Shown piece after piece: positions 1-11,340 of a DNA stretch of 64,000 nucleotides. This DNA is from Arhodomonas aquaeolei DSM 8974 (GTDB lineage Bacteria > Pseudomonadota > Gammaproteobacteria > Nitrococcales > Nitrococcaceae). The notes beneath the pieces were generated by a model, which had not been told where the DNA came from, did not search any database, and saw nothing but the letters and a program-made list of their open reading frames with translations. The position numbers and the translations under genes are program-made. Where the stretch lies: the NCBI RefSeq assembly GCF_000374645.1, contig NZ_KB894804.1:1-64000 (forward strand). The letters are read 5' to 3'. Positions within the stretch are counted from its first letter, which is position 1, and every line of letters starts with the position of its first letter.

Positions 1-680
<680 letters not shown>

Positions 681-8544: not shown

Positions 8545-8838
8545 TCAGCTGTCCTCGCCGAAGCGCTCGGCGATCAGGGCCTCCAGCGCCTCCATTGCCT
8601 GCGCCGCGTCGCTGCCCTCGGCCTCGATGAGGATGCAGCTGCCCTGGGCGGCGGCGAGCATCATCATGCCCATGATGCTCTTGCCGTTGACCGTGCGTTC
8701 GTCGCGGGTGACCTGGATGTCGGCGTCGTAGTGCCCCGCGGTACTCACGAACCGGGCGGCCGCGCGGGCATGCAGGCCGAGGCGGTTGACGATCTCCACC
8801 TCGCGGCGGATCCGGGTCGGTTCAGCGGTGTCGCTCAT
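8545..8838 (-). CDS. ptsH: HPr-family phosphocarrier protein (PtsH/NPr type)
   Basis: Small phosphocarrier that passes phosphate from a PEP-dependent enzyme I to EIIA proteins. At 97 residues, the active-site His23 sits in NRLGLHARAA (His15 of E. coli HPr). The regulatory serine Ser54 lies in VNGKSIMG (Ser46 equivalent), which is the target of HPr kinase where that enzyme is active. It is the last gene of the minus-strand operon and overlaps the EIIA gene by 17 nt. No ptsI or sugar permease gene is adjacent, so this is more likely a regulatory PTS than a sugar-uptake PTS. The enzyme I partner must be encoded elsewhere. Confidence 0.95.
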   Translation of the reverse strand: MSDTAEPTRIRREVEIVNRLGLHARAAARFVSTAGHYDADIQVTRDERTVNGKSIMGMMMLAAAQGSCILIEAEGSDAAQAMEALEALIAERFGEDS

Positions 8839-9250
8839 GGTGCCTGTCTTGCTCCGCGGGGGTGGGTTCGACGAGCAGCACGCCGTCGCGACCGCCGGTG
8901 TAGGCCTTGTCCCTAAGGGCCGCCAGCGGCAGGTCCGGATAGTTGAGCACGCGCAGGAGCATCGGCAGGTTCAGCCCCGAAACCACCGCCGTACCCATGC
9001 GCTCACCCAGGCGCACCGCCACGTTGCTGGGGGTCGCGCCGAAGGCGTCGGTGAGGATGAGCACGCCGTCGCCGCTGTCGAGGCGGGTGAGCAGCTCGGT
9101 GCCCCGGTGGACCATCGCTTCGGGGCTGCTGTCCTGGGGGACGTTGAGGTGCGCCGTCTCCAGCGGGCACGCGCCGAGGATGGTGCGCGCGGTGTTGAGC
9201 AGCTCCTGGCCCACACGGTTGTGCGTGATGATCAGCAGCCCGACACTCAT
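8822..9250 (-). CDS. PTS EIIA component, mannose (EIIA-Man) family
   Basis: Predicted phosphate acceptor of the mannose-type EIIA fold. At 142 residues, it starts MSVGLLIITHNRVG with the phosphorylatable His10 in the same place as in E. coli EIIA-Man. The ATG at 9250 is chosen because it overlaps the rapZ stop in an ATGA junction and begins the conserved first strand; an open frame extends upstream without homology. There is no fused IIB domain and no IIC or IID gene nearby, so it is a stand-alone EIIA. This arrangement, next to rapZ, hprK and ptsH, is found in many proteobacteria that use the PTS for regulation. Its regulatory target cannot be read from the sequence. Confidence 0.92.
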   Translation of the reverse strand: MSVGLLIITHNRVGQELLNTARTILGACPLETAHLNVPQDSSPEAMVHRGTELLTRLDSGDGVLILTDAFGATPSNVAVRLGERMGTAVVSGLNLPMLLRVLNYPDLPLAALRDKAYTGGRDGVLLVEPTPAEQDRHHERHR

Positions 9251-10107
9251 GGCAGCTCCCGGTGACGGACGTTGACCTGCCCGAGGCGGCCGCGGAAGTC
9301 CCCGCACAGCCGCTCGGCGAGATAGACGGAGCGGTGCTGTCCCCCGGTGCAGCCGATGGCGATGGTCAGGTAGCTGCGGTTCTCCTGCTGGAAGCGCGGA
9401 ATCCATTCGGCGAGGAAATCCCGCACCTGGGTGTGGAAGGCGGTGACCGTCTCCTGCGCCTCGAGGAATGCCGCCACCGGCTCGTCGCGTCCGGTGAGCG
9501 GGCGCAGCTCGGCGTTCCAGTGGGGATTCGGCAGGCAGCGCGCGTCGAAGACGAAGTCCGCATCCGGCGGCAGGCCGTGCTTGTAGCCGAAGGACTCGAA
9601 CATCAGCGAGAGGGTGTAGGGGGCCCGGACCAGGCGGGCCCGGACCAGGTCACGCAACTCGTGGACGGTGGTGCGCGTGGTGTCGATGGTCAGGTCCGCG
9701 CGCTCGAGCAGCGGCTCGAGCAGCTCGCGCTCGCGATGGATGGCCTCGTCCAGGGAGGTGTCCTCGCCGCTCAGCGGGTGTCGCCGGCGGGTCTCGCTGA
9801 AGCGCTTGAGCAGGGTGTCGCGCTCGGCGTCGAGGAAGAGGATCTCGCAGTTGATGCCGCTGGCGCGCAGCTGATCCAGTATCGCCGGGATGCGTGCCAG
9901 GTCCGATGGGCGGTTGCGCGCGTCCACGCCCACGGCGTAGCGGTCGTTGCCGGGCTCGTCCCCGGCAACGGCGGTAATGTGGCGGCCAAAGGCCTCCAGC
10001 AGGTCCACCGGCAGGTTGTCGATACAGTAGAATCCGGTGTCTTCCAGCGTGCTCAGTGCCACGCTCTTGCCCGATCCGGACAGCCCGCTAATGATGACGA
10101 GCCGCAT
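9247..10107 (-). CDS. rapZ: RNase adapter protein RapZ (P-loop ATPase family)
   Basis: Homologue of RapZ, which in E. coli binds the small RNA GlmZ and directs RNase E to it, controlling glucosamine-6-phosphate synthase. At 286 residues, the Walker A motif GLSGSGKS is at residues 8-15. The VFDARCLPNPHW region is near the middle, and the conserved C-terminal block containing IAIGCTGGQHRSVYLAERL is intact. It overlaps hprK by 20 nt and EIIA by 4 nt, so the genes are probably translationally coupled. Amino-sugar control would fit the many murein and LPS genes nearby, but that role in this organism is inference. Confidence 0.96.
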   Translation of the reverse strand: MRLVIISGLSGSGKSVALSTLEDTGFYCIDNLPVDLLEAFGRHITAVAGDEPGNDRYAVGVDARNRPSDLARIPAILDQLRASGINCEILFLDAERDTLLKRFSETRRRHPLSGEDTSLDEAIHRERELLEPLLERADLTIDTTRTTVHELRDLVRARLVRAPYTLSLMFESFGYKHGLPPDADFVFDARCLPNPHWNAELRPLTGRDEPVAAFLEAQETVTAFHTQVRDFLAEWIPRFQQENRSYLTIAIGCTGGQHRSVYLAERLCGDFRGRLGQVNVRHRELP

Positions 10108-10873
10108 TCAGTCGGTCCTCCGCGCTCGCTTGGCCGTGCGTAATGCCGCCGGCCTGACGGCACTCGCGTACCGCTGCCTCGATGAGCAGGGCGGTCATGG
10201 GGCCCGGGGCCAGGGTCAGCCGGGGCAGGGGGCGTCCGAGCAGTCCGCCGGTGGCCCAGCCCCCGGTCAGCGGGTCCGCACTCGCCCCGGGCGCGAGTAC
10301 CACTTCCAGGACCACCGGGGCACGCCGTGCCAGCGCCGCATCCCCGAAGTGCTCGTCCACCCGGATCACGCCGAGGCCGCGTACGGCGAGCCGTCCGCGG
10401 GGGCCCTCGTCGGGGGCGCGGCCCTCGGGGGTGGCGCTGGCGGCGGCGAGTGTCACCAGGTCGTCGGCCACCAGGGCGTGCCCGCGATCGAGCAGGGCCA
10501 GTGCCGTGTGGCTCTTGCCCGTGCCCTCGGCCCCCCTGAGCAGGACCCCGTGACCATGGATGCGAACCAGGGTGCCGGGGACTCCGGGGCGCCCGGCAAG
10601 GCGGACGAGGGCGCGATCGATTCGCCAGGCCAGGGCCTCGTCGTCCGCCTCCAGTGTCATCCAGGGCGTGCCGTCGGCCGGCGCGGCGTCGGCGGACTCG
10701 CAGACGATCAGGCAGGCGCCGTCCGCGTCGGTGGTGCCACGGCGTACCGGGGCGTCGCCACCGAGCCAGCGCGGTGCATCCACGGGTAGCTCGACGGTCT
10801 CGCCGCCGCCGTGCGCCGCGGCCCCGAGCGCCCGTGCCAGGGCGGTGCGGGGGATGCGCAGCCGAGGCGTCAT
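10088..10873 (-). CDS. hprK: HPr kinase/phosphorylase homologue, divergent
   Basis: Related to bifunctional HprK/P, which phosphorylates the regulatory serine of HPr. At 261 residues it is shorter than the usual 310 or so, mainly through a reduced N-terminal domain. A P-loop GAEGTGKS is at 114-121, followed by the HprK-specific block LLDRGHALVADDLV (Asp137-Asp138) and RGLGVIRV, close to the family signature RGLGIIDV. Two positions differ from the family: the catalytic-region HGV is PGT here (Pro99 instead of His), and the residue after GKS is His122 instead of Glu. It may be kinase-only, altered or inactive. It lies between ptsN (ATGA overlap) and rapZ (20-nt overlap). Confidence 0.85.
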   Translation of the reverse strand: MTPRLRIPRTALARALGAAAHGGGETVELPVDAPRWLGGDAPVRRGTTDADGACLIVCESADAAPADGTPWMTLEADDEALAWRIDRALVRLAGRPGVPGTLVRIHGHGVLLRGAEGTGKSHTALALLDRGHALVADDLVTLAAASATPEGRAPDEGPRGRLAVRGLGVIRVDEHFGDAALARRAPVVLEVVLAPGASADPLTGGWATGGLLGRPLPRLTLAPGPMTALLIEAAVRECRQAGGITHGQASAEDRLNAARHH

Positions 10874-11340
10874 GCCGGCGCGCCGTCCACCAGCCGTTGT
10901 GACACCTGCTCGTAGAGGGAACGGTCGGTGCCGCTGGCACGGAGATGCTCGCAGAAGGCCGTGTCACTGAACATCTCCGCCAGCGTGGCGAGGATGCGCA
11001 GATGCTCGTCGGTGGACTCTTCCGGCACGAGCAGCGCGAAGAGCAGATCCACCGGCTGACGGTCGACGGCGTCGAAATCCACGCCCGTGTCGAGGTTGAG
11101 CACCGCCGCCACAGGGGCATCCAGGCCCGGCAGCCGGGCATGTGGCAGGGCGACGCCCCGGCCCAGACCGGTGCTGCCGAGCCGCTCGCGTCCGATCAGG
11201 CTCTCGAAGATGCTGCGGGTGTCCGGACCGGTCGCATCCTCGTTGAGCAGTTCCGAGAGCAGCTCCAGGCTGCGCTTCTTGCTGGTGGCATGCGCCCCGT
11301 AGCGAACCCGCTCGGGGGAGAGCAGTGCTGCAATGTTCAT
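10870..11340 (-). CDS. ptsN: Nitrogen PTS EIIA component PtsN
   Basis: EIIA-Ntr, the output protein of the nitrogen-related PTS, which in other proteobacteria regulates potassium transport, sigma-54-dependent functions and stress responses according to its phosphorylation state. At 156 residues it is a single EIIA domain of the fructose/mannitol family, with phosphorylatable His67 in VALPHAR preceded by the typical RERLGSTGLG. It lies 138 nt downstream of hpf and overlaps hprK by 4 nt. The hpf-ptsN-rapZ order matches E. coli, with hprK and EIIA-Man added. Confidence 0.96.
   Translation of the reverse strand: MNIAALLSPERVRYGAHATSKKRSLELLSELLNEDATGPDTRSIFESLIGRERLGSTGLGRGVALPHARLPGLDAPVAAVLNLDTGVDFDAVDRQPVDLLFALLVPEESTDEHLRILATLAEMFSDTAFCEHLRASGTDRSLYEQVSQRLVDGAPA

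Follow-up and report, generated by a model that had tools for sequence, protein, structure and literature searches.

Residue roles in HPr kinase/phosphorylase (HprK/P) are known mainly from the Firmicutes enzymes. As far as the available text of PMC9399212 describes, Asp179 acts as a proton acceptor/donor, Glu204 is a Mg ligand, and Arg245 is a trans-acting residue on a loop that reaches the active site of the neighbouring subunit (residue numbers 140, 163, 204, 245 and the like follow L. casei/E. faecalis HprK/P numbering throughout). The enzymes from L. casei (1kkl/1kkm) and S. xylosus (1ko7) have the catalytic-domain fold, the P-loop, the Asp178-Asp179 pair and the HPr partner in common with the protein examined here. 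In the latter, however, His140, Glu163, Glu204 and Arg245 are replaced, the K3 loop is shorter and devoid of Arg, and the N-terminal part is reduced.

Among proteobacterial enzymes, the HprK from Xanthomonas campestris, gammaproteobacterial like ours, is given as a demonstrated kinase in vitro in the accessible part of PMC6916182. The short HprK from the alphaproteobacterium Brucella melitensis is reported, in the portion of PMC2937029 available, to be active as a kinase with barely detectable phosphorylase activity, the C-terminal conserved region being absent. According to the text available from PMC13104625, hprK is absent from most proteobacteria outside the alpha class. Within the accessible text of the open-licence literature, we found no description of an HprK variant such as the one below.

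An HprK homologue in a conserved PTS gene run

The window, by which we mean the whole stretch of 64,000 nucleotides analysed, carries on its minus strand a conserved run of genes in the order ptsN-hprK-rapZ-EIIAMan-HPr. The hprK-like gene (10088..10873) is intact, with a single open frame of 261 codons. Its start codon overlaps the stop codon of ptsN (EIIA-Ntr; 10870..11340) by 4 bases, and its end overlaps the start of rapZ (9247..10107) by 20. The gene for a mannose-family EIIA (8822..9250) starts at an internal Met of the 8822-9406 open reading frame, the domain beginning at residue 56 of that frame. In five genomes of genus g3 (L104, L109, L111, L113, L115), a phmmer search with the window EIIA as query (E 1e-5) detected no EIIA-Man homologue in the vicinity of hprK. 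The gene for HPr (8545..8838), the only HPr match in the genome, had been described as neighbouring hprK; it belongs to the same run, but is the third gene downstream and not adjacent.

The hprK product scored 88 bits against PF07475 (Hpr_kinase_C), well above the cut-off of 33.3. On the other hand, it stayed below the cut-offs of the HprK/P equivalog TIGR00679 (96 bits, cut-off 240), of NF003883 for HPr kinase/phosphorylase-related proteins (70.5 bits, cut-off 252) and of TIGR04352 and TIGR04355 for HprK-related kinases A and B (12.4 and 15.4 bits, cut-off 200). Across 150 genomes of the phylum, no protein reached the NF003883 cut-off. We identify the 261-residue protein as the HprK orthologue of this conserved PTS gene run. 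HprK, HPr and a GAF-bearing EI are each represented once in the genome, which also encodes a second PEP-utilising enzyme and gave no match to PTS_EIIC (PF02378), the one EIIC family searched. Judging from this gene content, its PTS would be a regulatory one.

An AF2 model of the protein (mean pLDDT 83) superposed on L. casei HprK/P with a VIA Z of 22, gave a Foldseek E of 1.9e-16 against 1kkm, and fitted the gammaproteobacterial HprK from Coxiella (3tqf) with an rmsd of 2.4 over 146 residues. The N-terminal domain had been called reduced. The N-terminal part (residues 1-92; 10598..10873) does fall short of that of E. faecalis HprK/P, with some 92 residues where the latter has 134 (available text of PMC9399212), but its placement is insecure: VIA pairs it with 1ko7 from residue 1, with an rmsd of 12.3 over both domains, so that the alignment is weak here. 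The Brucella enzyme differs in having no N-domain, according to the part of PMC2937029 available. Extensions of 89-162 residues before the kinase domain were present in eight other family f1 genomes outside genus g2 (L104-L107, L109, L111, L113, L115), whereas none exceeded 39 residues in genus g2 or in the f2-f5 genomes measured (L103, L108, L110, L112, L114, L116-L122 and the f2-f5 loci), lengths being counted from the first usable start codon and compared as lengths, not as homology.

Active-site residues

The three motifs pointed out in the preliminary description are all in place: the P-loop (114-GAEGTGKS-121; 10511..10534), the block 130-RGHALVADD-138 and RGLGVI at residues 165-170. Lys161, Ser162, Asp178 and Asp179 thus correspond to Lys120, Ser121, Asp137 and Asp138, the last two encoded at 10460..10465. 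The two substitutions proposed there also held. Pro99 (10577..10579) stands at the His140 position in the sequence alignment, and the range ends of the structural alignment agree; the model range 94..261 begins opposite residue 135 of 1kkl chain B, which, from range ends only, puts residue 99 on 140 if the stretch between is gap-free. His122 (10508..10510), following GKS, pairs with Glu163 in the sequence alignment. Neither alignment, when inspected, revealed a canonical His or Glu that misplacement had concealed, which rules out misalignment as the origin of the missing residues.

Further losses had escaped the preliminary description. Glu204 is replaced by Ala163 (10385..10387) and Arg245 by Pro201 (10271..10273), with no Arg within six residues of the Arg245 column. 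The K3 loop (266-271), which is linked to phosphorylase activity, has a two-residue gap at 266-267. Pro225 (10199..10201) occupies the Arg271 position or the one beside it, and Met226 that of Asn272; the gap makes these pairings less sure, yet the loop contains no Arg at all.

Three histidines, His106, His108 and His122, lie near the lost positions in the sequence, and two Halothiobacillus HprKs have the same His after GKS. Taken at face value, these residues might replace the missing ones in an ordinary bifunctional HprK/P. We consider this very improbable, as the loop associated with phosphorylase activity, K3, has lost residues, and the three histidines are not conserved in relatives.

Distribution of the losses

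The HprK family was present in 71 of 95 genomes searched, and 70 domains were aligned, 48 from the order of the window genome and the other 22 from elsewhere in the class (G061, with a match split over contigs, was omitted). Lys161, Asp178 and Asp179 were kept in all 70 domains and Ser162 in 69. His140 was missing in 47 of the 48 domains of the order, where Pro (40), Ala (3), Ser (3) or Thr (1) took its place, compared with 0 of 22 in the rest of the class. Its loss is therefore not unique to the window genome. Pro at position 140 also occurred in 4 of 28 further genomes of the class (families f112 and f117); some other bacteria have Gln or Tyr there.

Glu204 and Arg245 were distributed differently. 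Both were kept in 14 of 14 domains of families f2 and f3 despite the missing His140, and in 0 of 34 of families f1, f4 and f5. Each was kept in 18 of the 22 domains outside the order. As judged from the alignment, His140 is lost across the order, and Glu204 together with Arg245 in part of it. A hand-picked set of 20 short HprKs, taken from the phylum but from outside the class and presumed alphaproteobacterial, retained Glu204 and Arg245 in 20/20 and His140 in 16/20, position 163 again being variable. On sequence grounds, the window protein is a genuine, soundly aligned variant within a known family, common to a clade and partly recurrent elsewhere, and is among its most stripped cases.

Several single observations were made alongside. 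His after GKS was found in Halothiobacillus L018 and L006, and L018 matches the window letter for letter at GKSHTALALLDRGHALVADD yet keeps His140; these matches came through patterns containing that His, so that no frequency can be inferred from them. Family f100 (L299, L300, L307) has GKG for GKS in the P-loop, losing the Mg ligand Ser162 and keeping Glu204. HprK scored above the cut-off in at least 174 of 281 class genomes, with the best 12 or fewer candidates scored in each and a class that may include beta groups; this contrasts with the general absence outside the alpha class stated in PMC13104625.

Joint loss of Glu204 and Arg245

In a first set of 118 domains, 73 had both Glu204 and Arg245, 44 had neither and one had a mismatch. 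This count omits aL284, in which Lys161 is replaced by Arg and Asp179 by Glu, and includes 29 x rows drawn by patterns of the window protein, a biased sample. One of them, xL017, was scored as lacking His140 since its His preceded the trimmed stretch, so that 21 rows, not 22, lose His140 but keep the other two residues. A second set of 28 genomes, picked for low HprK scores, gave 8 with both, 13 with neither (counting a broken gene in G107) and 7 mismatches (Fisher p 0.016). The G107 gene looks broken, its match (L320, L324) being divided between two frames in pieces that overlap. With 7 mismatches in 28, strict coupling of the two residues had to be given up for mere association, and the alignments indicate that they tend to disappear together.

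In three of the mismatches (G148, G243, G317), an Arg was found one or two residues off the Arg245 column. Family f5 has an Arg four residues downstream of this column in 10/10, and most members of genus g2 have one a few residues upstream; by position, the shifted Arg may substitute in f5 and g2. Parsimony on a poorly resolved tree required 10 changes for Glu204 and 11 for Arg245. Three independent pairs were located on starred branches, both residues changing alike, too few for significance.

The 20 short HprKs, presumed to belong to the class in which Brucella HprK is a demonstrated kinase, indicate that loss of both residues is not explained by phosphorylase loss alone; it may mean loss of phosphotransfer. 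This is the main argument for a close rival to the kinase reading discussed below, namely that the protein binds ATP (or Pi/PPi) and HPr without phosphate transfer, regulating the PTS by ATP-dependent sequestration of HPr. The absence of the Mg ligand Glu204, the trans-subunit Arg245 and His140, all three together, points in the same direction. We regard such a pseudo-enzyme as a real, if minority, possibility.

The HPr partner

The target serine of the window HPr is present as Ser54 in NGKSIMG, as stated in the preliminary description, and His23 is kept too. The serine had been taken there as support for a live HprK target, and this did not survive a control, in which Ser46 was also found in 37 of 38 genomes without HprK. 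Retention of Ser46 was thus ruled out as evidence of HprK action.

The residue three positions before the serine behaved differently. It was Asp in 19 and Ser in 3 of the 38 HprK-less genomes, compared with Asp in 0 and Asn in 95 of 97 HprK-bearing ones, stripped enzymes included and genomes counted with kinship ignored (Fisher p about 5e-13, by genome and uncorrected for kinship). The 97 comprise 48 genomes of the order, the window included, 21 from the rest of the class (21 of 22, G085 lacking HPr at a contig end) and 28 with divergent HprKs added later; Asp was absent from each (0/48, 0/21, 0/28). By family, Asp occurred in 13 of 24 HprK-less families in a hand-compiled family table. The window HPr reads Asn51-Gly-Lys-Ser54.

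HprK-less HPr proteins were taken from 38 of the 41 HprK-less genomes that have an HPr (8/8 and 30/33), one copy each (two genomes have three), and of the 86 HprK-less genomes of the class survey that lay outside the first group, 80 were submitted to the analysis. HprK-less status rests partly on the best 12 or fewer candidates scored per genome, and a missed hprK would weaken, not create, the association. More than one type of HPr is represented in the HprK-less set, fused and sugar-PTS-like forms among them, and the set differs elsewhere too (Gly49 in 16/38 versus 65/69 HprK-bearing genomes), so that part of the Asn/Asp contrast may reflect HPr type. In the HprK-less HPr proteins (L173-L180, L215-L244), Asp at this position could mark relaxed constraint or provide a substitute acidic group close to the serine.

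Two genomes within the order, G031 and G040 (99% and 94% complete), had no hprK match, ptsN being followed directly by rapZ, and their residues at -3 were Asp and Ser. A match to EIIA-Man was also not found in G031 (L184; G040 is L185), and the two PTS genes may have gone together there.

Asn at -3 is, on these comparisons, better support for an ongoing HprK-HPr relation than the serine itself. Since HprK, stripped or not, accompanies a constrained Ser46 surface, HprK and HPr probably still meet. The constraint on the HPr flank would follow from docking too, which suits a protein that binds HPr without phosphorylating it and counts against the kinase reading.

Selection on hprK

The 44 domains without Glu204 and Arg245 share a mean pairwise identity of 36%, and Lys161, Asp178, Asp179 and Gly209 were kept in every one of them. 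Apart from the two positions that define the group, Gly207 alone dropped from at least 85% to under 70%, a single drop that argues for a specific change and not for general decay. In a pure binder, Asp179 would be expected to drift, and its retention in 44/44 speaks against the pseudo-enzyme.

In 12 close pairs of relatives, 10 of them without Glu204/Arg245 and none including the window gene, dN/dS of the hprK domain was 0.15-0.67, exceeding that of ptsN (measured in 11 pairs) and rapZ in every pair measured. Values below 1 yet above those of the two flanking genes suggest that hprK is under purifying but relaxed selection. The faster evolution, and the loss of hprK from two genomes of the order, could be taken to mean that the gene is on its way out, relaxed and without present function. 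We consider this improbable, given that dN/dS was below 1 in 12/12 pairs, Lys161 and both Asp residues are invariant, and the partner HPr is constrained. In addition, the window frame is intact, and among the 71 genomes with the HprK family a stop inside the match was found in one (G048) and a split match in one (G061).

Discussion

Our results point to an HprK of a regulatory PTS, and the explanation we prefer, at nearly an even chance, is that it has turned into a phosphorylase-deficient, one-way HPr(Ser) kinase. The ATP site, the retained Asp179 and the constrained target surface favour a kinase. The K3 loop, being defective, speaks against phosphorylase action; Brucella HprK likewise is a kinase that scarcely dephosphorylates. 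The protein would bind Mg-ATP in the P-loop, and Asp138 would activate Ser54 of HPr. With Ser54 phosphorylated, fewer phosphoryl groups would pass from EI-Ntr via HPr to EIIA-Ntr and EIIA-Man. Phosphorolysis would be weak or absent, and resetting HPr would need another phosphatase or dilution. Against a kinase, the two kept Asp residues could serve metal-ATP binding alone.

The short Brucella HprK, as presented in the available text of PMC2937029, resembles the window protein in its likely poor phosphorylase activity, its regulatory PTS and the variable residue after GKS. The short alpha-type HprKs compared here differ in the retention of Glu204, Arg245 and mostly His140.

The preliminary description had offered a kinase without phosphorylase, or else a sensor or binding protein. 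Both readings stay live, with more catalytic positions altered than it listed. Its two named changes turned out to be the weaker part of the case, because almost every domain of the order lacks His140, even where Glu204 and Arg245 are kept, and position 163 varies elsewhere; the serine lends no support. Taken together, the sequence comparisons suggest that the gene is not dead and that its product probably acts either as a one-way kinase or as a regulator that binds in an ATP-dependent manner.

A broader proposal, which we put forward as speculative, is that HprK repeatedly became an ATP-binding, HPr-docking protein without Glu204 and Arg245. This would constitute a recurrent second state of the family, whether as a pseudo-kinase or as a kinase whose metal site is reduced, in which the HPr Ser46 surface would still be under selection. 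Relatives in which the Mg ligand and the trans-acting Arg are gone together, but the ATP site and the constraint on HPr persist, would reveal which chemistry serves kinase, phosphorylase or docking. Asn at -3 of HPr Ser46, unlike the serine, may be a simple sequence sign of HprK control.
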